Of a stretch of 64,000 nt of DNA, positions 9,891 to 61,693 are shown one piece after another. This DNA is from a virus. Numbering within the stretch: the first letter of the stretch is position 1; every line of letters starts with the position of its first letter. The stretch is taken from positions 41,787 through 105,786 of IMG/VR virus record IMGVR_UViG_3300025929_000014; one strand, given 5' to 3'. The translations under genes were made by a program, and so were the position numbers. The notes beneath the pieces were generated by a model. It saw nothing but the letters and a program-made list of their open reading frames with translations. It searched no databases and was not told where the DNA came from.

Positions 9891-10499
9891 TTGTCAGGTA
9901 GCAACCTACCACTGATTGGGCTCAAGGGGCATAAAGGCGCCGGCAAGGATTCAGTCGCGAGTATATTGTGCTGCCGGCCCTACAACTTCGTCCGGCGCGC
10001 GTTCGCCGACGAGCTAAAGCGTGAGGTGTACAACGCATTCGGGTACGCCCTGCTGCTCCAGCTCTACGCCAAGGAACAAATAGAGGGCTGCGCCTTCGCC
10101 GACTGGATGGGGTTCCTCGACGCGCATAAATATGATGCGCCGGATGCAGAATACGGCTGGGTGCGTCCCCTGCTGCAGTTCTGGGGCACTGAGTATCGGC
10201 GCCAGCTGTGTCGGGACGATTACTGGCTGCGCAAAATGGAGGCCCTGCTCATGCCCGGCGTGGTGGTGACCGATATCCGCTTTCCCAACGAGGCGGACCT
10301 GGTGCGTAAGGCAGGCGGCTGGATCGTGCATGTCGAGCGCCCCATGGAGGTAACGCCCGATACGCATGCGTCGGAGGCGCTGCTGGATGCCATTGCCGCC
10401 GACTACACGCTCTATAACGACGGCAGCCTGGAGGATCTGCGTACCGAAGCGGTGACGCTGATCCCCTTCTTGCAAGAACAAGAAGGTGTACGTGGATAG
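9891..10499 (+). CDS. Deoxynucleoside monophosphate kinase
   Basis: The 202-residue product has an N-terminal P-loop GHKGAGKDS (residues 13-21) and the phage dNMP-kinase signature of FADELKREV, LLQFWGTEYRRQ and VVTDIRFPNEADLV. It phosphorylates dNMPs to dNDPs for phage DNA synthesis, as T4 gp1 does. The start is TTG at 9891 with an AAGGGGACG site. It follows the terminator and overlaps the HAD gene by 14 bases, so the two are coupled. Confidence 0.88.
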   Translation: MSGSNLPLIGLKGHKGAGKDSVASILCCRPYNFVRRAFADELKREVYNAFGYALLLQLYAKEQIEGCAFADWMGFLDAHKYDAPDAEYGWVRPLLQFWGTEYRRQLCRDDYWLRKMEALLMPGVVVTDIRFPNEADLVRKAGGWIVHVERPMEVTPDTHASEALLDAIAADYTLYNDGSLEDLRTEAVTLIPFLQEQEGVRG

Positions 10500-11504: not shown

Positions 11505-14200
11505 TGAGTACCTGCGCTGACTGCCCCTACAAAGGTGACTCCTGCGGCTTTCGCGGACCCATCGACGCCCCCGTCGTGATCGTGGGCGAGGCGCCCAGCT
11601 TCAACGACCTGGCTGCCGGGAAACCGTTCTCCGGTGATGCCGGTCAGCTGCTCAAGGGCGTCATCGCGGCCGCAGGTTATGGCGACCTGCCCATTCTGTA
11701 CACCAATGCCATGGTCTGCAAGCCGGACTTTTCCGATGAGCCGTTCGCCAAAGGCATTGCGGCCTGTCGGATGCGCCTCTTGGCGGAAGTGAACATGTAT
11801 CCCCGCAGGATGGTGATCGCTCTGGGCACCAGCGCACTGCGCGGCCTTATTGGAGGTGCTGGCGAGGATACCAAGCTCAGGGGCCAGTTCCTGAAGCTCT
11901 TCAACGGCACGCCCCTGATGGTCACCTATCGTCCAGGCGCCGTGTTGCGTGCCGTCGGCTATTACCGCCACTTTGCGCGCGATATACGCCGGGCGCTGGC
12001 GGTTGGCGCCGGTGAGCCCCGTCCAGATCCGGGCGAGACGCAGCATGTCGTGCTCGATGCGGCCGGCACACGCGCCCTGGTGCCGAACCTGCTCGCTCTG
12101 CCGCATGGACAGCTGGTGGCATTTGACGTGGAGACTACCGGTCTCAATCCGCGCCTGAACAAAGTAACGTTTCTGGGTATCTCCTACGAGCCGCACCATA
12201 CCTTCATCATCCCGGCCGCGCATATCCCCTTGCTGGCGCCCGCCATGCTGGGCGCGAATGCGCGCTGGGTCGGCCACAACGTCCAGTTCGACGTGAAGTT
12301 CTTGCAGGCGGCCGGCCTCGACGTGCCGCTCCATCACGATACACAGATTATGTCGTATTGCCTGGATGAAGTCCCTGGCGGGCATGGGCTCAAGGCGTTG
12401 GCCAACGAGCACCTGGGCACCAACGACTACGAGGCGGCGCTGGATGTCTATAAGAAGAAGCACGGCATCGTCGGCGACTACAGCCAGATCCCCAACGAGA
12501 TCCTACTGCCCTATCTGGCGATGGATGCCGACTACACGCTGCGCCTGGCGAACCTGCTCCTGCCCCAGGTGGAGGCCCAGCCGGACCTGAAGCACCTCTA
12601 CTATAACACGCTGCTGCCGGCGACCCGCGCGCTCCTCAAAGTGGAGGCTGCCGGGCTCTGGATGGATCCTGAGCGGACTGAACTTGCTCGCGCGTCCATT
12701 ACGGTGGAGCGGGATAACCGGCTGGCCGAGCTGGAGGATCTGGCCTACGGCATCTGGGATACGGAAGCCTATCGTCGGGATACGGGGTCCAGGGCGGGCG
12801 TTAAGGGGCCGTCCGCCGCGCAGGTCGCGCACATCAGTTCGACGGATAAGAAGAAGATCGACTGGATGCTGAAACGTCTGGAGCTGGGCTATGTGCTCCC
12901 CAGCCTGCAGGAGAAGGCGCTGCGCGATGCCATAGCCGCCCTACCGACAGATCGTGTGGCAGGCCACTTCCTGCAGGTGTTGCAGGGCCTGCGCATGGCC
13001 GATAAGGAGCTAAAAGCGCTCAGGAAGGAAGAGCATACGGATAAGGAGGCGATAGACGCCGCCAATGACCTCAAGACGCGTGCCAAGGCGATCTTCGACT
13101 CCTGGGAGCATGCCTACTGGAAGCCGGCCGAGTATCAAGCCGAACGCGAGACCCGCACGGCCGTAGACTTCACGCCGGGCAGCCCGGCACAGGTCTTGTG
13201 GCTGCTCAAGAAGATGGGTATTCCGGTCTCCAATACGCAGGAAGACACCATCAAAGGGTATGCGGCGACAGTGCCCTTTATCGAATCGCTACTGGGCTAT
13301 CGTGGCGCCGTCAAGTCGCTGGGCACCTACGTGGATGCCATTTCGGAGATCGTAGCCAAAGAGCCGGACGGTCGGGTGCATGCCACCTTCCGCTTGACGA
13401 CCGTCGTCACCGGGCGGCTCTCATCGGCCGAGCCCAACCTGCAGAATATCCCACGAGATCCGATGTTGCGGGGTATGTTCGGGGCGCCACCAGGACGCAT
13501 CCTGGTGGAGGCCGATCTCTCGCAGGCCGAGCTGCGGGTGCTGGCCCATCTCTCTGGTGATGCCTTCTTGCGCCAGGTCTATGCCGAAGGGCGCGATCTG
13601 CACAGCGAAATGGCGGCCAGCGTCTTCGGGCCAAACTTCACGCCGGAGCAGCGCACCAAGACCAAGATCCTGAACTTCGGCGTGATCTACGGCATGAGCG
13701 CGCATTCACTCTCCGCTCAGTTCGAGATGCCCCTCAAAGAGGCGGAAGGCATCATCACCCGCTGGTATGAGCGGGTGCCGCAAGCCAAAGCCTACCTGGA
13801 AGCCTGCCGGCAGGCGCCGCTCAAGGGGCATGTGCTGACCACGCCGTTTGGCCGGCGCCGTCGGTACGGGCTGATTACCAACGAGAACATGGATGCCGTC
13901 CAGCGCGAGGCCACGAACTACGCCATCCAATCGACGGCCAGCGACATTGCGCTCCATGCTGCTATCGTGGTGCAGCCCCAGCTGCCGGCGCTGGACGCCT
14001 TCATCGTCAATATCGTCCACGACTCCATTCTGGTGGAGTGCCCCAATGACGCCCAAACGCCCAACCTGGTCGCTCGCCTTCTGGTGGAGACCATGCGGCG
14101 TATCCCCGCCGAGCGTATCGGCTTTACGGTCCCCATGGATGCCGACGCCAAGATTGGCCGCCATTGGGGGCAGATGCAGAAATGGAAGGAGCAAGGGTGA
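11504..14200 (+). CDS. Uracil-DNA glycosylase domain fused to family A DNA polymerase
   Basis: An 898-residue fusion. Residues 1-150 are a family 4/5-type UDG: CADC (4-7), VGEAPSFNDLAAGKPFSGDAG near 27-47, VCKP near 73 and a further Cys about 15 residues on, matching the four iron-sulfur ligands. Residues 200-365 are a 3'-5' exonuclease: ExoI VAFDVETTG (D208, E210), ExoII GHNVQFD, ExoIII YLAMDADYT. The polymerase domain (about 550-898) has motif A EADLSQAELR (D671), motif B KTKILNFGVIYG (Phe kept near 725) and motif C VHDS (D840). All catalytic residues are present. The UDG part could excise uracil or keep the polymerase off uracil-containing DNA. It is the replicative polymerase candidate. 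A GTGA overlap couples it to the RNA ligase. Confidence 0.92.
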   Translation: MSTCADCPYKGDSCGFRGPIDAPVVIVGEAPSFNDLAAGKPFSGDAGQLLKGVIAAAGYGDLPILYTNAMVCKPDFSDEPFAKGIAACRMRLLAEVNMYPRRMVIALGTSALRGLIGGAGEDTKLRGQFLKLFNGTPLMVTYRPGAVLRAVGYYRHFARDIRRALAVGAGEPRPDPGETQHVVLDAAGTRALVPNLLALPHGQLVAFDVETTGLNPRLNKVTFLGISYEPHHTFIIPAAHIPLLAPAMLGANARWVGHNVQFDVKFLQAAGLDVPLHHDTQIMSYCLDEVPGGHGLKALANEHLGTNDYEAALDVYKKKHGIVGDYSQIPNEILLPYLAMDADYTLRLANLLLPQVEAQPDLKHLYYNTLLPATRALLKVEAAGLWMDPERTELARASITVERDNRLAELEDLAYGIWDTEAYRRDTGSRAGVKGPSAAQVAHISSTDKKKIDWMLKRLELGYVLPSLQEKALRDAIAALPTDRVAGHFLQVLQGLRMADKELKALRKEEHTDKEAIDAANDLKTRAKAIFDSWEHAYWKPAEYQAERETRTAVDFTPGSPAQVLWLLKKMGIPVSNTQEDTIKGYAATVPFIESLLGYRGAVKSLGTYVDAISEIVAKEPDGRVHATFRLTTVVTGRLSSAEPNLQNIPRDPMLRGMFGAPPGRILVEADLSQAELRVLAHLSGDAFLRQVYAEGRDLHSEMAASVFGPNFTPEQRTKTKILNFGVIYGMSAHSLSAQFEMPLKEAEGIITRWYERVPQAKAYLEACRQAPLKGHVLTTPFGRRRRYGLITNENMDAVQREATNYAIQSTASDIALHAAIVVQPQLPALDAFIVNIVHDSILVECPNDAQTPNLVARLLVETMRRIPAERIGFTVPMDADAKIGRHWGQMQKWKEQG

Positions 14201-15261
14201 GCAGTTTTGAGGTCAAGGTCTACCCCATAGAGCTGCACCCGCACGAGAACGCGGATGCGCTTGAAATCGGCCGTATACCAGGCCAGGATTATCAGTTTGT
14301 TGTGCGCAAGGGCCAGTTCGTGGACGGCGATCTCTTTGTCTATATCCCCGAACAGGCGGTGCTTCCGCAGGATCTCATCGAGGGTATGGGTTTAACCGGA
14401 ATGTTGCACGGCAGCAACAAAAACCGGGTGAAGCCGATTCGCCTGCGCGGCGTATTGAGCCAGGGTCTGGCGCATAGGCCGGTTGTCTGGCCTCCCGACT
14501 GGGAGCTGGGCATGGACGTTGGCGACGAGCTGGGCATCACCAAGTATGAGCCGGTTGTCCCCACGCATCTGGAGGGGAGGGTCAAGCCGGCACCTAACCT
14601 ACCGCGTGCGCCGGGCGGATCGCTCTTCCAGGGCTACACCGACATCGACAACATCAAGAAGTTTCGCGATGTCCTGCAGCCTGGTGAGCTGGTCTATGTG
14701 ACGGAGAAGCTCCATGGCACCTGCCTTCTGGTCGGCAGCCTGTGTGGCGAGCGGGTGGTTTCCAGCCTGGGGTTGGCCCGGCGTGGCTACATGCTGGAAG
14801 ACGACGGCAACGTCTACTGGGAGACGGCCAAACGCTACGAGCTGCACGACAAGCTGGAGATGATGCTGAAGAGCAAGGGCTGCCAGCAGGGCATGATCTT
14901 TGGCGAGATCATCGGCGTGCAGGATCTCAAGTATGGGCACACGGACGGTCAGACGAGCTTTCAGGCGTTTGACTTACTCCTGGAGGAGTCATATGGCTAC
15001 CAGCCGTATTATGAGTTCCTGCCGCGTTGTCTGAGCTATGGTATCCCCACCGTGCCCCTGCTCTTTATCGGTCCTTATGCGCCGGACCACATCCTCTCGC
15101 TGACGGCCGGCAGCAGTTCGCTCGCTGATGTGCGTCATGTCCGGGAGGGCGTGGTCATTCGTCCAGCAGCCGAGCGCCGCCATCCCGCCTTGGGGCGGGT
15201 GATTCTGAAGAGCATCAATCCCGACTATCTCACGCGCAAGAATGGCAGCGAGTTTCACTGA
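14197..15261 (+). CDS. RNA ligase (DraRnl/Rnl5-like)
   Basis: The 354-residue product has an N-terminal OB-like domain (about 1-130) and then a nucleotidyltransferase domain: motif I TEKLHGTCLLV (lysine near residue 171), motif III-like FQAFDLLLEE, motif IV EGVVIRP and motif V GRVILKSIN. The KLHG form of the motif and the domain order resemble Deinococcus RNA ligase (Rnl5). Such enzymes use ATP to seal 3'-OH/5'-phosphate breaks in RNA duplexes. In phages RNA ligases often repair tRNAs cut by host anticodon nucleases. The GTG start at 14197 overlaps the polymerase stop. Confidence 0.87.
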   Translation: MSSFEVKVYPIELHPHENADALEIGRIPGQDYQFVVRKGQFVDGDLFVYIPEQAVLPQDLIEGMGLTGMLHGSNKNRVKPIRLRGVLSQGLAHRPVVWPPDWELGMDVGDELGITKYEPVVPTHLEGRVKPAPNLPRAPGGSLFQGYTDIDNIKKFRDVLQPGELVYVTEKLHGTCLLVGSLCGERVVSSLGLARRGYMLEDDGNVYWETAKRYELHDKLEMMLKSKGCQQGMIFGEIIGVQDLKYGHTDGQTSFQAFDLLLEESYGYQPYYEFLPRCLSYGIPTVPLLFIGPYAPDHILSLTAGSSSLADVRHVREGVVIRPAAERRHPALGRVILKSINPDYLTRKNGSEFH

Positions 15262-18788: not shown

Positions 18789-19010
18789 ATGGAGACCAAG
18801 AGCAAGATAGCGGAGATTCAGCACAACTTCACCTACCATCCCCCGAAGGAAGGACAGCAGGATACGTACAGCTTTCTACGCAAACGTGGGCTTGATTTCT
18901 CGCTGGATATTTTCGCCCTGACGCCCAGCTCGCGTGAGCAATCGCTGGCGCTGACCAAGCTCGAAGAGGCGGTGATGTGGGCGAACGCCGCCATCGCTCG
19001 GCACGGCTAA
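18789..19010 (+). CDS. acb2: Acb2/Tad1 hairpin-type cyclic-nucleotide sponge (anti-CBASS)
   Basis: The 73-residue product carries the Acb2/Tad1 hairpin-domain pattern: NFTYHPPKEGQQDTY in the first half and SREQSLALTKLEEAVMWANA followed by AIAR at the end. Acb2 proteins bind cyclic di- and trinucleotide signals and so block CBASS immunity; Tad1 relatives bind gcADPR and block Thoeris. The two helices of the hairpin are predicted at about 20-40 and 45-70. The start at 18789 follows GAAGGAGA. It is the last gene before the arm-closing terminator and stands beside a DNA methyltransferase, making a small anti-defence pair. The ligand cannot be told from sequence. Confidence 0.85.
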   Translation: METKSKIAEIQHNFTYHPPKEGQQDTYSFLRKRGLDFSLDIFALTPSSREQSLALTKLEEAVMWANAAIARHG

Positions 19011-53066: not shown

Positions 53067-53075
53067 AGTATACCA
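53067..53075 (-). promoter_or_regulatory. Minus-strand extended -10 promoter in the island
   Basis: On the minus strand TGG-TATACT (TATACT at 53067-53072, TGG at 53073-53075) is an extended -10. It faces the small head gene at 52913 and the rest of the late genes. Its left arm ATACCAC (53070-53076) pairs with GTGGTAT (53105-53111), so both divergent promoters share an inverted repeat. A -35 is not evident. Confidence 0.5.
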
Positions 53076-53105
53076 CGTCCATATTGGCCTGTTTCATCCA
53101 CGATG

Positions 53106-53114
53106 TGGTATGAT
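53106..53114 (+). promoter_or_regulatory. Plus-strand extended -10 promoter for the tRNA-like genes
   Basis: TGG-TATGAT (53106-53114) is an extended -10 located 20 bases upstream of the first tRNA-like gene. A weak TTGGCC at 53084 could serve as -35 with a 19-base spacer. It is the mirror of the minus-strand promoter at 53067. Confidence 0.5.
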
Positions 53115-53133: not shown

Positions 53134-53208
53134 TGCTGATTGGTGTTCTGGGAACACAACCCGATATAAAGGGACGCCAGGTAGGTTCGATTCCTGCATC
53201 AGCAGCCA
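53134..53208 (+). tRNA. tRNA-like gene 1 (anticodon position reads ATA)
   Basis: A 75-base cloverleaf: acceptor TGCTGAT/ATCAGCA (perfect), D arm GTGT/ACAC, T arm GTAGG-TTCGATT-CCTGC, discriminator G and encoded CCA. The anticodon arm is abnormal: ACCCG-ATATAAA-GGGAC pairs badly, and only CCC/GGG (three pairs) forms, leaving an 8-base loop GATATAAA. With T33 kept, the anticodon would be ATA (Tyr, codon UAU). It may be degenerate or specialised. Confidence 0.6.
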
Positions 53209-53231
53209 TGCGCGGCCGCACACCGCGCATG
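53207..53231. repeat. Hairpin between tRNA-like genes 1 and 2
   Basis: CATGCGCGG (53207-53215) pairs with CCGCGCATG (53223-53231) over 9 bases with a 7-base loop. It begins in the CCA end of the first tRNA-like gene and could guide processing or act as a weak attenuator. Confidence 0.55.
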
Positions 53232-53235
53232 CACA

Positions 53236-53310
53236 GGATGGATAGCTCAGGGGTGAGAGCGCCGGATTCTAAACCGAAGGGCGCAGGTTCGAGTCCTGCT
53301 CCATTCGCCA
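53236..53310 (+). tRNA. tRNA-like gene 2 (anticodon position reads CTA, amber type)
   Basis: A 75-base cloverleaf: acceptor GGATGGA/TCCATTC (one G-U), D arm GCTC/GAGC with AGGGGTGA loop, T arm GCAGG-TTCGAGT-CCTGC (perfect), discriminator G and encoded CCA. The anticodon arm CCGGA-TTCTAAA-CCGAA does not pair as it should; shifting by one base gives three pairs and an 8-base loop ATTCTAAA. With T33 and A37 kept, the anticodon is CTA, reading UAG. It looks as if one base at position 39 were missing. Confidence 0.65.
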
Positions 53311-53410
53311 GTCTTGAGGCGGTGTGGTGTACGCTAACTAGGAATAAGGCACTGGGGAATGTCCTAGCATCTGGCCCCTAGCCTCGCAGGTTCGTATCCT
53401 GCCAAGACTG
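53310..53410 (+). tRNA. tRNA-like gene 3 (class II-like, expanded anticodon loop)
   Basis: The acceptor AGTCTTG (53310-53316) pairs fully with CAAGACT (53403-53409), and the T arm GCAGG-TTCGTAT-CCTGC is perfect. The D arm is likely GCG/CGC. A stem CTAGG/CCTAG in the anticodon place closes a 20-base loop instead of 7, and a short hairpin GGC/GCC fits a class II variable arm. No CCA is encoded. The anticodon cannot be assigned. Its first base coincides with the last A of gene 2. Confidence 0.45.
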
Positions 53411-53416
53411 CATAGA

Positions 53417-53453
53417 CAAAGAAGCCCGCATCACTACGATGCGGGCTTCTTTG
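53417..53453. terminator. Bidirectional terminator after the tRNA-like genes
   Basis: A perfect 16-base inverted repeat, CAAAGAAGCCCGCATC (53417-53432) and GATGCGGGCTTCTTTG (53438-53453), with a 5-base loop and T/A-rich ends on both strands. It would stop + strand tRNA transcripts and also minus-strand capsid transcripts. Confidence 0.9.
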
Positions 53454-53467
53454 CGCGCTCAACATAG

Positions 53468-53523
53468 ACGCTGCCCGCTCATCGTTTGGTTGAGAGACCG
53501 CGTTATTGATGAGCGGGCAGCGT
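53468..53523. repeat. Long inverted repeat with 24-base loop
   Basis: ACGCTGCCCGCTCATC (53468-53483) pairs perfectly with GATGAGCGGGCAGCGT (53508-53523). The loop of 24 bases lies between. It has no T run, so it is more likely an RNA structure or protein target than a classic terminator. Confidence 0.8.
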
Positions 53524-53567
53524 GCCGTAACCGGCAAGGTGGAGTATGGGCGTGCGGGGCGTACCTG

Positions 53568-53608
53568 TCACGTTCTACAGGGCATGCGTAATGCCCTGTA
53601 GAACGTGA
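53568..53608. terminator. Perfect 18-base hairpin after the capsid gene
   Basis: TCACGTTCTACAGGGCAT (53568-53585) pairs perfectly with ATGCCCTGTAGAACGTGA (53591-53608) around a 5-base loop. It begins 3 bases after the capsid stop codon on the minus strand. It lacks a U tract, so it may stabilise the capsid mRNA or slow polymerase rather than terminate fully. Confidence 0.7.
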
Positions 53609-53611
53609 TGC

Positions 53612-55144
53612 CTATGAGATGCTGAAGCCCAGGAGGACAGCATTGATAAGCGGCAGGTAACAGAGCAGAGCCCCGTTATTGCGGATCTCCACCGGCCAGT
53701 TGGGGTCGGTTGGCGGATAGTCAAGTTCGAGATAGTCATAGACCCACTCGCTCGACCACACGCTCGGAATATCCGAGCCGGGATACCAGTTCGGCATCTT
53801 GCTGGAGAGCATGACCATCACGCCCTGGGGCAGGGTCGGGTGGACGCGCACGTCGCACAGCGTACCGGTCACGCCGTTGGTCAGCCGGCTCACACGGAAG
53901 TTACCGACTGCCTGGTTCGGGGAGCCTTCCGGCTGCACGAAGAAGGGGGTAGAGGCCAGTGAGCGGTTGATGACCAGCGCCTCAGCCTGGTTGATCAGGA
54001 TCATGTCCGGGTCGCCCTTGGCGGCACCCCACACCAGCCCGAAGGTGGTGTCGATGTCGCTCGGCGCCGACGCCGAACCCATGTACAGACCGAGCGGATT
54101 GCCCGACGTATTCAGGTTCAGATTCTTCTGGAACACGGTCGCGCCGGAGTTGGCGGCCAGCAACTGCTGGATGATGCCCGGATAGGCGCGCGAGTCGGAC
54201 GAGGTGTTGCCGGAGAGACCAGTCACCGACGCTGCGGCCACTGAGCCGGCCGTGTAGGTGTTGATCACCGCGCGGCCGCTGAAGGGCAGGCGAATGAAGT
54301 TGGTGTCGGCATGCGCCTTGTAGTAGAGGACGTAGCCAATGGCACCCTGCTGGGTAACCGGCGTGACCACGATCTGGTTGGCGCCAGTGCCAGCGGCGAT
54401 GGCGGCGGTCGTGTAGATCGCGCTGATCGGGCTCTCGGCTGTGAAGGTGTTCACGCTGGTCGAGAAGTTGAACCCGTAGTCGGGGCCGGTGCGGACAGTG
54501 TAGTAGAAGTCGAAGCCTGCGGCGAATGCGCCCAATCCACCACCGGTGGTATTGACCACGACCTGCGTCGCCGTCAAGGTAGCGGGAGCAGCCTGCGCGC
54601 CACCGATGGTGACGCCGGTGGAGGGAGCGGTGCCGCCTGTGCCACCGGACGAGGCGCCGGTGAGGCCGGTCGTCGGGTTACCGAAGAGCAGGTTGTCCTC
54701 TTCGGCGATCATGAAGGAGCGGAGCAGGTTGGCGACGGCCAACGCCTTCATGTCTACCTGACCAGCAGATTGGTACTGGCCCTCGAAGCTGATGCGGCTC
54801 TTGAGCGCCTGAATCTTATAGGGCATCAATACATCGACGGTGGTCACATCGACCAGACCGCCGGAGACGCCTTCTGACGACCAGGAGGGAGTGCGCGCCG
54901 AGTTGTAGTTCGTGACGGCCTTGAACTCGGTGGCCTTGCCGTAGCCCTTGCGGCGGGGGATGAAATTGCGGACGGGGGTCAGGACGGGGGCGAGCAGGCG
55001 AGCGCCGGGCTCCAGGTTGTAGGGGATTAGCCCCAGGCCGGTCTGGAAGTCTTTGACGACATCCGGCAACACGGCAGCCTGACCGCCAGCATAGACGCCT
55101 TTTACCACGTCAATGGTCTGCTGCAGATCTTGTGCGAGACTCAT
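53612..55144 (-). CDS. Major capsid protein (HK97 fold)
   Basis: The 510-residue product shows HK97-type features: a helical N-terminal arm (LAQDLQQTIDVVKGVYAGGQ), the E-loop/P-domain region with YKIQALKSRISFEGQYQSAG, and the A-domain segment SKMPNWYPGSDIPSVWSSEW. Residues about 175-315 form an inserted beta-rich domain (TATQVVVNTTGGGLGAFAAG), probably exposed on the capsid. The strong AAGGA site and following hairpins fit high expression. The stop is TAG. It follows the protease gene after a 33-base gap, as usual. Confidence 0.88.
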   Translation of the reverse strand: MSLAQDLQQTIDVVKGVYAGGQAAVLPDVVKDFQTGLGLIPYNLEPGARLLAPVLTPVRNFIPRRKGYGKATEFKAVTNYNSARTPSWSSEGVSGGLVDVTTVDVLMPYKIQALKSRISFEGQYQSAGQVDMKALAVANLLRSFMIAEEDNLLFGNPTTGLTGASSGGTGGTAPSTGVTIGGAQAAPATLTATQVVVNTTGGGLGAFAAGFDFYYTVRTGPDYGFNFSTSVNTFTAESPISAIYTTAAIAAGTGANQIVVTPVTQQGAIGYVLYYKAHADTNFIRLPFSGRAVINTYTAGSVAAASVTGLSGNTSSDSRAYPGIIQQLLAANSGATVFQKNLNLNTSGNPLGLYMGSASAPSDIDTTFGLVWGAAKGDPDMILINQAEALVINRSLASTPFFVQPEGSPNQAVGNFRVSRLTNGVTGTLCDVRVHPTLPQGVMVMLSSKMPNWYPGSDIPSVWSSEWVYDYLELDYPPTDPNWPVEIRNNGALLCYLPLINAVLLGFSIS

Positions 55145-56767: not shown

Positions 56768-59700
56768 CTATGCACTACGACGCAGATGCGCGTTGTGCTC
56801 GGCGATTTGGTCGGCGTGCGCGGCCATGCGGCGCCAGGAGACGTTCTGATCGCCCCGTTGCTGGTGCTCGTTGGCCCAGAACCGCAAGGAGCGCTCCGTT
56901 TTCTTGAGCATCTCGCTGCCTGACTCATTGCCGGTATAGCGCTGAGGATTGCGGTCGTGCATCAGCATCTCCGCATAGCGGTGACCCTCCAGATCCTGGC
57001 GCGGGACGCCGGCATGGTGGAGGAGCGCCTTCAGGCCCTCGTGCAGAATCTGCTTTTTCTGCGCTTCGGGATCGGCGATGTTCTTGCCGGCCACGTAATG
57101 GCGCCCGACCTCCTTGCCGGCGTTCCAGGCCGACTGATCTCCGAGATCGCCGGCCGCGTGCCCGGTCGGAGCGGCCGTCATGCGGTAGGAATCGCCTCCC
57201 TCATAATTGAGGTGGTGGACACCGCCCTGCCCGAACTGCGAGACTTCCCGATGCAGATCGCCCAGGGCCTGTTCGTAGCCGGGAGCGTCTTTTGGATTGA
57301 CGCCGGCTGGGCGGGGAACGGTGCGCCCATGGAAGCGCACCGGCGCATCACTGCCAGGCTGGCGGTACTGCAAGCTGGGAGTTGCGGTGCCTTCCTCGCT
57401 GCGCACGGAATCGCCGGGAGAAAAGGCTTCGGGAGTAGTGGCGAACTGGCCGCCCTGCACGACCTTGCGGTGCGCTGCCAGGCGGTCCCGGTCGCTAACG
57501 GGAGACGCTGCCGGTGTGGGCTTTGCAGGGGCAGATGCCGGTGCCGGTGCCGGTTTGGCGCTGGCGCCCGCTACGGGCGTGCCGGCGTTGTCGATGGTGC
57601 CATCCCAGGCCGGAGGCGTTGCGGCGGGAGCAGCTGTCGCGGCGGCGGGTTTCGCCACGCGCGGGAAGGTGGCGGGCTTGACGGATTTAGGTGGTGTTGC
57701 GGGAGCCGCAGTAGCTGGGCCTGGCGCTGGGGCTGAAGCCGCTGGTGCAGCCGATGCTGGGGGCGGAGCCGAAGCAGCTGGTTTTGCTGCTGCCGTACCA
57801 CTCTCTTCCTCCTTTGCATAGCGGTCCCTATGCCGCCCCGCCTCAATGGCGTCCATCCCTATCGCATTCCAAGCGGCCATATTGTGTCTTTGGCCAGACG
57901 CAATAAGTGTTTTCGCCTTTTGGTAACGCGCTTCTGGAGAATTATCTGGCGCAGCTGCTTCGGGCGCCTGTGTCTGCGGTTCTGGGGCATTGGCGCCGGC
58001 AGTATGCCGGTCTACCGCAGCCGCCCAATCGTGGGCTGGGCCGTGATTGGGATTGACCTCGCCGCGCGCTTGGGCTATCGCACCGTAGTGCTCTGCCAGA
58101 GGCTTGGCGTGTGCGAGGGCGGCAGTGTGCTGAGCAGGAGAGAGACCAGTGGCCCAGGATCCCGCGCCGGCCGCCTGATGCCCAGCCGTGTGCTCGGCGA
58201 CCTGGGCAGCAGTGAGTGTTCCCGCTTGCGGCTTTGCCGCAGACGGTGTTGGGGCGGGTTCCGGCTTAGCTGTAGAAGCTGTCTCCGGCTTGGCGGCGTT
58301 ATCGGGGTGGGCCGCTATCAGCCTATTCATAAGACTGACATTCTGCTTGGCTTGATCGACCGTCGTCTCGTGGCGTCCGAGCTTCTCATCCCAGTCTTTG
58401 CCGCCCTGTATATGGTCGTAGCCGCCCCTGGCACGAGGAGACTTGGCCTCGTCTTCGTTGTCCTGATGATCTTCCAGCGCGCGTTGCGCATTTTGCAGAT
58501 CAGTCGTGGCGGCGGCATGGCGGTTCTGCAGGGATGCCATCGGTTCGGGATGCGCCTGATGGTGCGCCATCAAGGCGTCCTCCAGCTGCCGGCGCTGGGA
58601 GCTAAGATTGGCGCGCTGCGCGCTGGGTCCAGGTTGAATCCCCTGGAAACCCCTGGCAGTCGCTGTGAGCTTGTTATAGAGGCTGGTACGGTGCGCTTCG
58701 GTGTTGTTGGCTGCCGCCATTTCTGCCTGGTCGCGACCGCTCGTCCTGTAGCCTCCGGCACGCGTACTCGGCTTTTCGCCAGCGCCCTGCGCCATATGCA
58801 ACTTGTCGTTCTCCGTCTGCAGCCGGGCATGCTCGGCGGAAAGCTGATCGTGCTGTACTTGCAGGGAGTGGACCTGGGTGCGGGCGCCGGCATGCTGCGC
58901 GGCCTGCAGCTGCGCGCCGACGTTATTCATGCGCTCGACATGGCTTGCCAGCGCCGCGTCATGGGCGGCTACGTCCTGCGCCTTGACTGGCGCAGCTGCC
59001 GGTTTGGCGGGCGCTGGGGCAACCGGTTTAACGGGAGCGGGAGCTGCCGTCTTCGGTGCGGGTGCGGGTGCGGGTGCGGGCTCCGGCTTGGATTCCGGTG
59101 CGGGAGCTGCTGCTACCGGCTGCGGATTGCTCAGCTCCGGCAGATGCTTCTCGAACAGCTCTTGATCTTTACCGGCTTCAGCCTGGGCGCCAGGTAACGC
59201 GCGCTGGGCCATGTCATCGTGATGCTGTGCATGTTGCTGCAGCTCGTTGAAGGCTTCGGCATGCTCGTGGTAAGCGGCATGATCGCCCTCAGCCGGCTGA
59301 TGCTGCTCGTTGAGCGCGTGTGCCGCCTCCTCATACATGCGTCCGGCCCGCACATGACCGTTATAGAGATGGGTGTTCGGCATCTGCTCGCGAATAGCCT
59401 GCGAGAGCGGGTTATTGACCGCATCGAGGTGCGGATGCGAGTGTTGCAGCGCAGCGCCCAGATCCTCGTGCAGCTGATCGTGCCCATGCTGCATGGGGGT
59501 TTTGGCGTTGATATGCTGATAGGCTTGCTGCGCGAACTGGCGCGGGCTGAAGGCAGGCTCGGCAGCCGGCGCAGCCGCAGGAGGCGGTGCCTCTGGCGCT
59601 GCAGGCTTGGGTGCTTCCGGCGCTGCGGGCGACGGCGCACTAGGAGCCGGTGGCGCTACCGGTTTTGGTGCCGGAGGCGGTGCTGCTTGTGCCGGAAGCG

Positions 59701-61693
59701 GTGGCGGAGCAGATACCTGCGGAGCCGGCGCGGGTGCGGGTTTGGGCGCTAGAGCAGGGGGAGCGACTGGAGCCGGCATTGGGGGAGCGCTCGACGCAGG
59801 AGCAGGTGCGGCTGCCGGTTTCGGTGCAGGCGCCGGAGCGGGACCGGCCTGCGGCGAGGCACCGGCAGGTTTGGCGCCATTTTGCGGCTTGACCTGCCAG
59901 GGGGGTGGAGCTGTGTAGGGCTTCTGCTGTGGAACGGATTGGTGCGCGACAGCCGGCGTCGCCTCGTCGCCATGATAGGCGGCGCTCAGCGTATCGCTGG
60001 CCTGATCGGCTTTCTTCTCCATGCCGCGCGCGAGGGCGCGATGCAGGTTGGCGGTCGGCCCGTTGCCGGCTGCCCGATGCGCCTCTTCCAGATGCGTATG
60101 CGCGAGATAGTGGCCGAGATCACCGCCCTGTTGCTGGGCGAACTGCTTCCACTGGTCGTAGCTGCCGGCATGCTGCGAGCCGGCGACTCCCCGGAAGTTC
60201 TCCGGTGGATAGTATTTGCCGATATACTCGCCCAGGGCCGCTCCGGCTTTGCCTTTCGCTTCGGCGCTGGCTTGCTGGGAGGCGGACTGCTGTGGCGCAC
60301 CGCCTCCAGAAGCGGGAGCGCCTCCAGGTGCGGATGGCCCTGCAGATGGTCCTGCAGACGGCTGCGCGGAGCGGGGCTGTGACGGCGCTCCAGACGCTGC
60401 TGTGGGCGCTGCTGGGCCAGCCTGATGCTGTTGTGGAGGGGCGCCTGCTGGAGCTGGAGCTGGAGCAGGCGGTGCTGGCGGAGCAGCCTGCGGTGACATA
60501 GCGGGAGCGGGAGCGGGCGCAGCTTTCGGTGCCGGAGCGGGAGCGGCTTGCGGTGGCGACGCCGGTGCAGGTGCAGGGGCAGGGGCAGGGGCAGGTTTGG
60601 GCGCAGCTGCGGCCTGTGGAGCGGGTGCCATGGGCGCGGGGGCTGGTGCTTCAGACGCTGCTTCGGCTGGAGGCGTTGCAGGTGCCATGGGAGCTTCCAT
60701 AGGGGCTGCGGGTGCCATTGGAGGGCTTCCAGCCTGTGGCGCCTGTTGTGGCGCTGCTGACGGCATCTGCGGGGCGACACCCTGATCGAAATTGGTCTGC
60801 ATGCCGGGTACATGGCCGCTACTGCCGGTCTGGGTGCCGCCTGGTGCTGGTGCCATGGGGGCGGGAGCGCCTGATGCTTGTGGTGCTTGCGGGGCTGCGG
60901 CCGCTTGTGCTGCCGGCGCCGCCATGTGCGGCATGCCGCCGTAGAACGCCCCCTGGAAGCTGGCCGGCATCGGCTGCCCGGTCTTCGAGGAGTATGAGTC
61001 GCGGAGCGAGCTTTCGAGGTTGCGGGCCACCTGTCCCCTGGCCATGCGGGGCGGCTTGCCCTCCATGGCGGGTGCGGCTTGCGCTGGGGCAGCTTCTTCC
61101 GCCTGTGGCGCTTCTGCTTCAGCTGGTGCTGCTTGCGCTGCCGGTGCGCCGATGCCTGCCGGGCGTGGACCACCACGCCTGGGAGCGCCAGCGCTTGGCG
61201 TAGCCGGCGTGGGAACCGGCGTACGCATGGCGGCCGCCCTGGTCGGCGTGGCATGCTGGGCGGGATCGAACTCCCGGTAATTGGGATGCGCGTTATGCCC
61301 TTCCGGCGTGGTGCCCGATGGGTGGTGCGTGATGGTCACCTTGTGCTGGATATCGTGTGGCACCGGTGGCAGGTGCTTGATATTCGCGCCGATCAGGTGC
61401 GCCGGGCCTTTGGTGACCACGCCGCCCGCACCGACAAAGATATGGGTGACCATCTCGCCGTCGTCGTCTGGCGTGGCGTGATGAATGGTGATCCAGTGTC
61501 CGCCACCACCAGCTGCCTTCCCCAGATCGATGCCCAGCGCCATACAGGCGTCGGGATCGGGGAACAGGCTCTTGATGATGTCGAGCTGGCGATTATAGAT
61601 GGCCGCATGCTGCGCCGCTCGAAACAACGCAAGCGCCTGCACATCGGCAGGGTCATCGCGGACGATGACGTGCTGGGGAACGGGTTGACGCAC
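56768..61693 (-). CDS. Giant Pro/Ala-rich virion-associated protein (1641 aa)
   Basis: The N-terminal 135 residues form a small domain (GGHWITIHHATPDDDGEMVT, IFVGAGGVVTKGPAHLIGAN). Residues about 150-490 and 590-760 are extremely rich in Pro, Ala, Gln and Gly (APAPAPASPPQAAPAPAPK) and certainly disordered. Helical islands occur between (AHLEEAHRAAGNG-type; HLYNGHVRAGRMYEEAAHAL; coiled QSLQVQHDQLSAEH-type near 930). The last 200 residues are helical and basic. It is likely a head-associated or ejected protein. GTG at 61693 has an AAGGAG site. No enzyme motif was recognised. Confidence 0.75.
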   Translation of the reverse strand: MRQPVPQHVIVRDDPADVQALALFRAAQHAAIYNRQLDIIKSLFPDPDACMALGIDLGKAAGGGGHWITIHHATPDDDGEMVTHIFVGAGGVVTKGPAHLIGANIKHLPPVPHDIQHKVTITHHPSGTTPEGHNAHPNYREFDPAQHATPTRAAAMRTPVPTPATPSAGAPRRGGPRPAGIGAPAAQAAPAEAEAPQAEEAAPAQAAPAMEGKPPRMARGQVARNLESSLRDSYSSKTGQPMPASFQGAFYGGMPHMAAPAAQAAAAPQAPQASGAPAPMAPAPGGTQTGSSGHVPGMQTNFDQGVAPQMPSAAPQQAPQAGSPPMAPAAPMEAPMAPATPPAEAASEAPAPAPMAPAPQAAAAPKPAPAPAPAPAPASPPQAAPAPAPKAAPAPAPAMSPQAAPPAPPAPAPAPAGAPPQQHQAGPAAPTAASGAPSQPRSAQPSAGPSAGPSAPGGAPASGGGAPQQSASQQASAEAKGKAGAALGEYIGKYYPPENFRGVAGSQHAGSYDQWKQFAQQQGGDLGHYLAHTHLEEAHRAAGNGPTANLHRALARGMEKKADQASDTLSAAYHGDEATPAVAHQSVPQQKPYTAPPPWQVKPQNGAKPAGASPQAGPAPAPAPKPAAAPAPASSAPPMPAPVAPPALAPKPAPAPAPQVSAPPPLPAQAAPPPAPKPVAPPAPSAPSPAAPEAPKPAAPEAPPPAAAPAAEPAFSPRQFAQQAYQHINAKTPMQHGHDQLHEDLGAALQHSHPHLDAVNNPLSQAIREQMPNTHLYNGHVRAGRMYEEAAHALNEQHQPAEGDHAAYHEHAEAFNELQQHAQHHDDMAQRALPGAQAEAGKDQELFEKHLPELSNPQPVAAAPAPESKPEPAPAPAPAPKTAAPAPVKPVAPAPAKPAAAPVKAQDVAAHDAALASHVERMNNVGAQLQAAQHAGARTQVHSLQVQHDQLSAEHARLQTENDKLHMAQGAGEKPSTRAGGYRTSGRDQAEMAAANNTEAHRTSLYNKLTATARGFQGIQPGPSAQRANLSSQRRQLEDALMAHHQAHPEPMASLQNRHAAATTDLQNAQRALEDHQDNEDEAKSPRARGGYDHIQGGKDWDEKLGRHETTVDQAKQNVSLMNRLIAAHPDNAAKPETASTAKPEPAPTPSAAKPQAGTLTAAQVAEHTAGHQAAGAGSWATGLSPAQHTAALAHAKPLAEHYGAIAQARGEVNPNHGPAHDWAAAVDRHTAGANAPEPQTQAPEAAAPDNSPEARYQKAKTLIASGQRHNMAAWNAIGMDAIEAGRHRDRYAKEEESGTAAAKPAASAPPPASAAPAASAPAPGPATAAPATPPKSVKPATFPRVAKPAAATAAPAATPPAWDGTIDNAGTPVAGASAKPAPAPASAPAKPTPAASPVSDRDRLAAHRKVVQGGQFATTPEAFSPGDSVRSEEGTATPSLQYRQPGSDAPVRFHGRTVPRPAGVNPKDAPGYEQALGDLHREVSQFGQGGVHHLNYEGGDSYRMTAAPTGHAAGDLGDQSAWNAGKEVGRHYVAGKNIADPEAQKKQILHEGLKALLHHAGVPRQDLEGHRYAEMLMHDRNPQRYTGNESGSEMLKKTERSLRFWANEHQQRGDQNVSWRRMAAHADQIAEHNAHLRRSA

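Follow-up and report, generated by a model that had tools for sequence, protein, structure and literature searches.

A three-gene tRNA-like array with altered anticodon arms in a contractile-tailed phage and its possible relation to the non-decoding stable RNAs of T5 and T4

The tRNA clusters of phages T4 and T5 hold stable RNAs that are annotated without a function. One of them is T5 rna1, an annotated stable RNA of 144 nt in the tRNA cluster (AY692264 30504-30647; 5505-5648 of our locus L040). It consists of a pairing acceptor, a T arm GAAGG-TTCAACT-CCTTC, a class II variable arm and a D arm of the Leu/Ser type (CCG-GAATTGGTAGA-CGG), and it carries no CCA. The anticodon arm is long and extended, with an invariant apical loop ACAUCCAC and no usable anticodon loop. 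Homologs occur in T5-like and Klebsiella phages (L053-L057), and rna1 matches 490 phage records. An alignment of six phages revealed compensatory changes at nine pairs altered on both sides, six in the extended arm and three in the acceptor; 95% of the cells in this alignment pair, versus 36-52% in sliding controls. Normal Leu tRNAs, those of Rctr197k, also receive 22-37 bits from the rna1 covariance model, which shows that rna1 descends from a tRNA. T5 rna1 is thereby shown to be a tRNA-derived RNA with a conserved, covarying arm in place of the anticodon arm.

The two other stable RNAs considered here are T5 rna2 and T4 rnaC. T5 rna2 (125 nt; L040 7963-8087) has an acceptor, a T arm with a covarying stem and a second T-loop-like hairpin, and it is present in 432 records. 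An unannotated member scoring 52 bits was found in the T4-like Acinetobacter phage Henu6 (L052 2402-2536). In the rna2 structure used, the D-arm helix is out of register, the pair counts understate the pairing and the model is slightly off. In T4 rnaC (species 1 RNA, 139 nt; L043 2409-2547), the T arm CCGGG-TTCGAAT-CCCGG is perfect, the acceptor pairs in part, and a long hairpin resembles a variable arm. Neither rna1 nor rna2 matches an Rfam family at the gathering score, and literature searches on anticodonless phage tRNAs and on the stable RNAs of T5 gave nothing on point.

The array described here lies in a 64-kb stretch of DNA (the window), which comprises bases 41787-105786 of an IMG/VR record of 105,786 bases in all. 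It belongs to a contractile-tailed phage encoding a capsid protein, a tail sheath and a tyrosine integrase. The capsid protein is 34-37% identical to the major head protein of Alicyclobacillus phage MMB025 and to a THSA-485A homolog. Scans of viral contigs with the capsid, the tail sheath and a capsid profile returned no close relative of the phage; relatives of the DNA polymerase are only 25-36% identical, and a terminase search of genomes led to one distant MAG. A plus-strand unit of about 350 bases sits between the capsid gene and the head-tail connector genes (52913 and below), both of which are on the minus strand.

The unit contains three tRNA-like genes, arranged head to tail on the plus strand (Table 1). 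They had been described in the earlier note as genes with normal bodies and complete acceptor and T arms, two of them with an encoded CCA, whose anomalies were limited to the anticodon arm. We scanned both strands of the window for a 7-bp acceptor stem combined with a 5-bp T stem and a TTC loop. Exactly three places were found, all in this array, while random sequence of like composition yields 0.017 matches per window. The acceptor-plus-T-arm architecture is not a product of chance, and the three genes are real. Their acceptor and T arms are indeed complete, as 36 of 36 pairs form across the three genes with G-U allowed, and the CCA is encoded in genes 1 and 2 (GCCA each) and absent from gene 3. 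The description as normal bodies holds for gene 2, which retains U8, A14, G18G19 and A58, and fails for the two others: gene 1 has lost A14, and gene 3, by our reading of its sequence, U8, A14 and A58. ARAGORN and Rfam RF00005 likewise accept gene 2 alone and leave genes 1 and 3 uncalled. A 5-bp anticodon stem with a 7-base loop is found in none of the three. No other tRNA above threshold was detected anywhere in the 105,786-base record, and no tmRNA was found by ARAGORN.

Table 1 Coordinates of the tRNA-like array and associated features in the window
Feature	Position	Strand	Basis
ATP-dependent RNA ligase, Rnl5/DRB0094 type, replication region	14197..15261	+	TIGR02306, 203.5 bits (cut-off 151)
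Promoter-like element CGTGGTATACT, divergent, serving the connector operon (52913 and below)	53067..53077	-	inferred from position
TTGGCC, 19 bp upstream of the extended -10 element TGTGGTATGAT	53084-53089		
Extended -10 promoter-like element TGTGGTATGAT	53104..53114	+	exact match
Gene 1, tRNA-like, 75 nt, CCA encoded	53134..53208	+	scan, folding
8-bp hairpin ATGCGCGG/CCGCGCAT, between genes 1 and 2	53208..53230	+	fold of the whole unit
Gene 2, tRNA body with CCA	53236..53310	+	RF00005, ARAGORN, comparison with phage Arg(CCU), Val and Asn tRNAs
Gene 3, tRNA-like, about 100 nt	53310 to about 53409-53412	+	scan, folding
Perfect 16-bp hairpin AAAGAAGCCCGCATC..GATGCGGGCTTCTTT, terminator-like in both directions	53417..53453	+	inverted repeat
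Major capsid protein gene, TAG stop, convergent with the tRNA-like unit	53612..55144	-	protein similarity

Gene 2 is the most tRNA-like of the array. It scores 54.9 bits with RF00005, whose gathering threshold is 29 bits, and has the acceptor GGATGGA/TCCATTC, the T arm GCAGG-TTCGAGT-CCTGC and a terminal GCCA. ARAGORN reports it as 'tRNA-???' with a 6-base loop. The anticodon arm is 16 nt long, one base short of the normal 17, and can be read in two ways: as a 7-base loop TTCTAAA with the anticodon CUA and base 39 absent, where the covariance model places the gap, or as a 6-base loop TTCTAA with an A31-A39 mismatch. Position 27-43 is C-A, and the anticodon stem has at most three pairs. Normal phage Arg(CCU) tRNAs contain TCGGT-TTCCTAA-ACCGA where gene 2 has CCGGA-TTCTAA-ACCGA; the missing base could therefore equally lie in the anticodon, and CUA is one of two readings. 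The proposal that gene 2 lost position 39 and bears a CUA anticodon is thus right about the shortened arm, while the loss of base 39 is not separable from that of an anticodon base, and CUA depends on which of them is missing.

In gene 1, by comparison, the acceptor TGCTGAT/ATCAGCA pairs throughout (7/7) and is followed by GCCA at the 3' end, and the T arm GTAGG-TTCGATT-CCTGC has a 5/5 stem with one G-U. The D stem GTGT(T)/(A)ACAC closes a changed, 7-base D loop. The anticodon arm is mispaired, with only CCC/GGG remaining. Position 39 had been regarded as lost here too; the total length of gene 1 is standard for its D loop, so no lost base is required, and the arm is mispaired instead. In the fold of lowest energy, a helix TGGTGTTC/GGACGCCA plus GGG/CCC takes the place of the D and anticodon arms and links the D region with the variable region, while the acceptor and the T arm are retained. 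This fold has an energy of -26.3 kcal/mol versus -21.6 for the cloverleaf, and a z of -3.07 versus shuffles. A relationship to tRNA-Sec, the top Rfam match of gene 1, was rejected, with a score of 17.9 bits against a gathering score of 47.

Genes 2 and 3 overlap by one base, the final A of the gene 2 CCA. The acceptor of gene 3 is AGTCTTG/CAAGACT, its T arm GCAGG-TTCGTAT-CCTGC, and its D arm is of the Leu type (GCG-GTGTGGTGTA-CGC). The enlarged anticodon arm starts with CTAGGA (53338-53343). It had been drawn as a 20-base loop closed by CTAGG/CCTAG; the enlargement and the closing helix stand, whereas the stem extends to 6 bp (CTAGGA/TCCTAG) and the loop shrinks to 18 bases. A longer rod-like arm is the other option and folds better (-33.8 versus -27.8 kcal/mol). 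The fold of gene 3 is no better than that of shuffles (z -0.41), and no Rfam family matches it. Given its missing U8, A14, A58 and CCA, the anomalies of gene 3 go beyond the anticodon arm, to which the earlier note had confined them. An archaeal-type intron, with an insertion after position 37, was considered for gene 3 and is unsupported; the capsid relatives are all bacteriophages.

The array appears to have its own transcription signals. We infer that TGTGGTATGAT is the promoter of the tRNA-like unit; this call comes from its position and its pairing with the divergent copy CGTGGTATACT and not from motif rarity, the promoter-like motif with one mismatch being no rarer than chance in the window. 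Transcription is predicted to start at about 53121, 13 bases ahead of gene 1. The hairpin ATGCGCGG/CCGCGCAT overlaps the final A of the gene 1 CCA. At the other end, the hairpin AAAGAAGCCCGCATC..GATGCGGGCTTCTTT is similar to the terminator portion of the Rfam family Thr_leader, with a score under the gathering cut-off. A Thr_leader near 53417-53530 was rejected, the match being limited to this hairpin. Between the terminator and the capsid stop lie two more perfect inverted repeats, at 53568-53608 and 53468-53523 (18 and 16 bp), which makes three strong hairpins within 190 bases.

Among the stable RNAs of T5 and T4, it is T5 rna1 whose architecture gene 3 fits. Both belong to a phage tRNA unit and have an intact T arm, a pairing acceptor and a D arm of the Leu/Ser type; the anticodon arm, putatively so in gene 3, is extended and offers no loop that could serve for decoding. 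Both lack CCA, and the helix CTAGGA/TCCTAG is common to their arms. They differ in that rna1, at 144 nt, has a 6-bp class II variable arm and the loop ACAUCCAC, neither of which occurs in gene 3. T5 rna2 and T4 rnaC share with the window genes the location in a phage tRNA cluster, the T arm and a whole or partial acceptor, and they have a long and odd middle part and, like gene 3, no CCA, but they are 125 and 139 nt long, and beyond the T arm their sequences are unlike those of the window genes. In a genome-scale search at default settings, the rna1 and rna2 covariance models picked up no window gene; scores for gene 3, of 14.3 bits (rna1) and 14.9 bits (rna2), appeared only in an unfiltered search of 551 bases. 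Judged by these models, genes 1-3 are not members of the rna1 or rna2 families. Ordinary phage tRNAs are the other point of reference. Gene 2 passes the RF00005 family score, and the short array and encoded CCA are likewise ordinary, whereas the anticodon arm is wrong in three of three window genes.

Whether anomalies in one arm point to selection, as had been argued, depends on the stems used for comparison. Broken pairs amount to 5 of 15 in the anticodon arms and 0 of 47 elsewhere (p = 0.0005), a contrast to be read in the knowledge that the acceptor and T arms served to find the genes and are intact partly by definition. The fair comparison is therefore that with the D stems alone, which gives p = 0.046. 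The concentration of anomalies in the anticodon arms of genes 1 and 2 is thus supported, if weakly, and is suggestive of selection but short of decisive; the departures of gene 3 are not limited to that arm. At other phage loci, the anticodon arms are normal in all called tRNAs of Rctr197k (41/41), L058 (8/8) and T4 (8/8). Another phage contig (L025 3527-3613) carries a Leu-type tRNA with CCA and a 6-base anticodon loop CGAAAG, which given one more pair could alternatively be a GAAA tetraloop. Searches with DNA patterns of genes 1, 2 and 3 and a blastn search of phages with gene 3 found no homologs; the pattern matches were chance hits inside coding DNA, ordinary tRNAs, or nothing.

Our comparison gives the best support to an option absent from the earlier note, namely that the array might encode non-decoding stable RNAs of the T5/T4 type. 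That genes 1-3 are non-decoding tRNA-like RNAs forming a small transcription unit is the reading we tentatively prefer, at somewhat less than an even chance. It is favored because every acceptor, T and D stem is paired, even in gene 3 with its lost U8, A14, A58 and CCA; decay of that extent, if unconstrained, should also have disrupted stem pairs. The restriction of acceptor-plus-T-arm structures to these three in 64 kb, the unit's own promoter-like site and hairpin terminator, the precedent of T5 rna1, the retention of the T arm and at least a partial acceptor in T5 rna2 and T4 rnaC, and the Rnl5-type RNA ligase encoded by the phage argue in the same direction. Against it stand the gene 3 arm, which folds without thermodynamic excess, and gene 2, which looks like a tRNA a single deletion away from normal, as well as the lack of homologs and the failure of the rna1 and rna2 models to find the window genes. 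Ordinary decay of three tRNA genes acquired from a host or from another phage is the main rival; it explains nearly as much and comes only slightly behind in probability. The collections searched yielded no relative of the locus. Gene 2 would have lost one base, the D and anticodon arms of gene 1 would have diverged, and gene 3 would have received an insertion after position 37 that left a remnant Leu AAG anticodon followed by G37. Gene 2 can indeed be derived from a common tRNA type, Arg(CCU) for example, by a single deletion plus one or two substitutions; tertiary bases that are normally conserved are missing in genes 1 and 3, and the 6-base loop on L025 is a case from another phage. Phage tRNA pseudogenes are also on record, one per repeat in phage XacN1 (PMC5852040) and three and one in T4-like phages (PMC1524935). 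Like the window genes, these fail the criteria for tRNAs; in the window, however, three of three genes in a single array are odd and every acceptor, T and D stem is intact, and the unit retains both the promoter-like site and the perfect terminator hairpin. A further explanation, that normal tRNA genes were misread in sequencing or assembly, fits the metagenomic origin of the record and the single missing base of gene 2, but genes 1 and 3 would need many changes and the neighboring long coding frames are intact, which makes this the slimmest of chances.

The remaining readings keep the RNAs in translation. Decoding tRNAs with altered arms might escape or feed host anticodon nucleases and possibly be repaired by the phage RNA ligase. 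Some phage tRNAs are mutated in the anticodon loop and have been predicted to resist such nucleases (PMC10264068); they resemble the window genes in that the changes fall in the anticodon arm. The ligase is encoded, with further matches to Pfam RNA_ligase and to Naegleria RNA ligase structures, and gene 2 is otherwise a good tRNA. The published nuclease-insensitive tRNAs, however, carry loop substitutions in arms that still support decoding (PMC10264068), whereas the window genes have broken pairs, altered arm lengths or wrong loop sizes. Nuclease resistance had been offered in the earlier note; in the published sense, it does not match these arms. The conserved tertiary bases missing from genes 1 and 3 also speak against decoding, and a T4-type kinase-phosphatase partner was not recognized, the HAD protein at 10486 being merely a generic hydrolase. 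We consider this reading improbable. Decoys for nucleases, another of the original options, are a possible role of the window RNAs. Frameshift or amber suppression would have gene 2 read UAG, or UAGA through an 8-base loop, and extend the capsid protein. CUA tRNAs do exist in phages (XacN1, PMC5852040), and gene 2 gives CUA by one reading or UCUA in an 8-base loop. The capsid gene ends in TAG, as had been noted, and its frame is open for 50 codons to a TGA at 53461-53459. Of the 73 predicted genes, 32 have an open frame of at least 50 codons after the stop, and the capsid extension is therefore nothing unusual. UAG itself is an ordinary stop, neither recoded nor avoided, that ends about 20 of the 73 genes, the tail sheath and capsid genes among them. 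A perfect 18-bp hairpin lies directly after the capsid stop and would have to be crossed by the read-through extension. Gene 2 lacks the combination of CUA, a 7-base loop and a paired stem that characterizes an amber suppressor, and CUA itself hinges on the missing base. Suppression at the capsid stop is very unlikely, and we do not retain it.

Under the preferred, non-decoding reading, tRNA-derived RNAs would be made from one small transcription unit, and at least two of them would have lost the ability to decode. The retained acceptor stem, T arm and D stem might allow host tRNA-processing enzymes to recognize, excise and protect the RNAs, and the tRNA ends would then act as a scaffold for processing and stability. 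Meanwhile, the anticodon arm would have been shortened in gene 2, rearranged in gene 1 and built out in gene 3. Such stable tRNA-shaped RNAs would most likely act not in decoding but through proteins that recognize the tRNA body, such as processing enzymes, tRNA-cutting defense nucleases or the phage RNA ligase. The ligase is a possible partner; its presence makes a link to RNA repair conceivable and is no evidence for it. Expression, processing, stability and a binding partner of the three RNAs are put forward here on the strength of sequence features. A wider proposal, which we regard as possible but rather doubtful, is that phage tRNA cassettes commonly hold tRNA-shaped, non-decoding RNAs in which the anticodon arm is replaced by a functional arm, and that the present cassette consists entirely of such RNAs, which would serve as mimics or decoys toward host enzymes that bind tRNA or toward defense nucleases, possibly in concert with the RNA ligase of the phage. 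Should the window cassette prove to be of one kind with T5 rna1, in a phage that is unrelated, tRNA mimics that do not decode would represent a general strategy among phages.

Two further features were observed elsewhere in the window. An Ala/Pro-rich open frame of 1641 residues (56768-61693) adjoins the head genes. A small protein encoded at 18789-19010 contains an Acb2/Tad1 hairpin domain, known from sponges that counter defense by taking up cyclic nucleotide signals.
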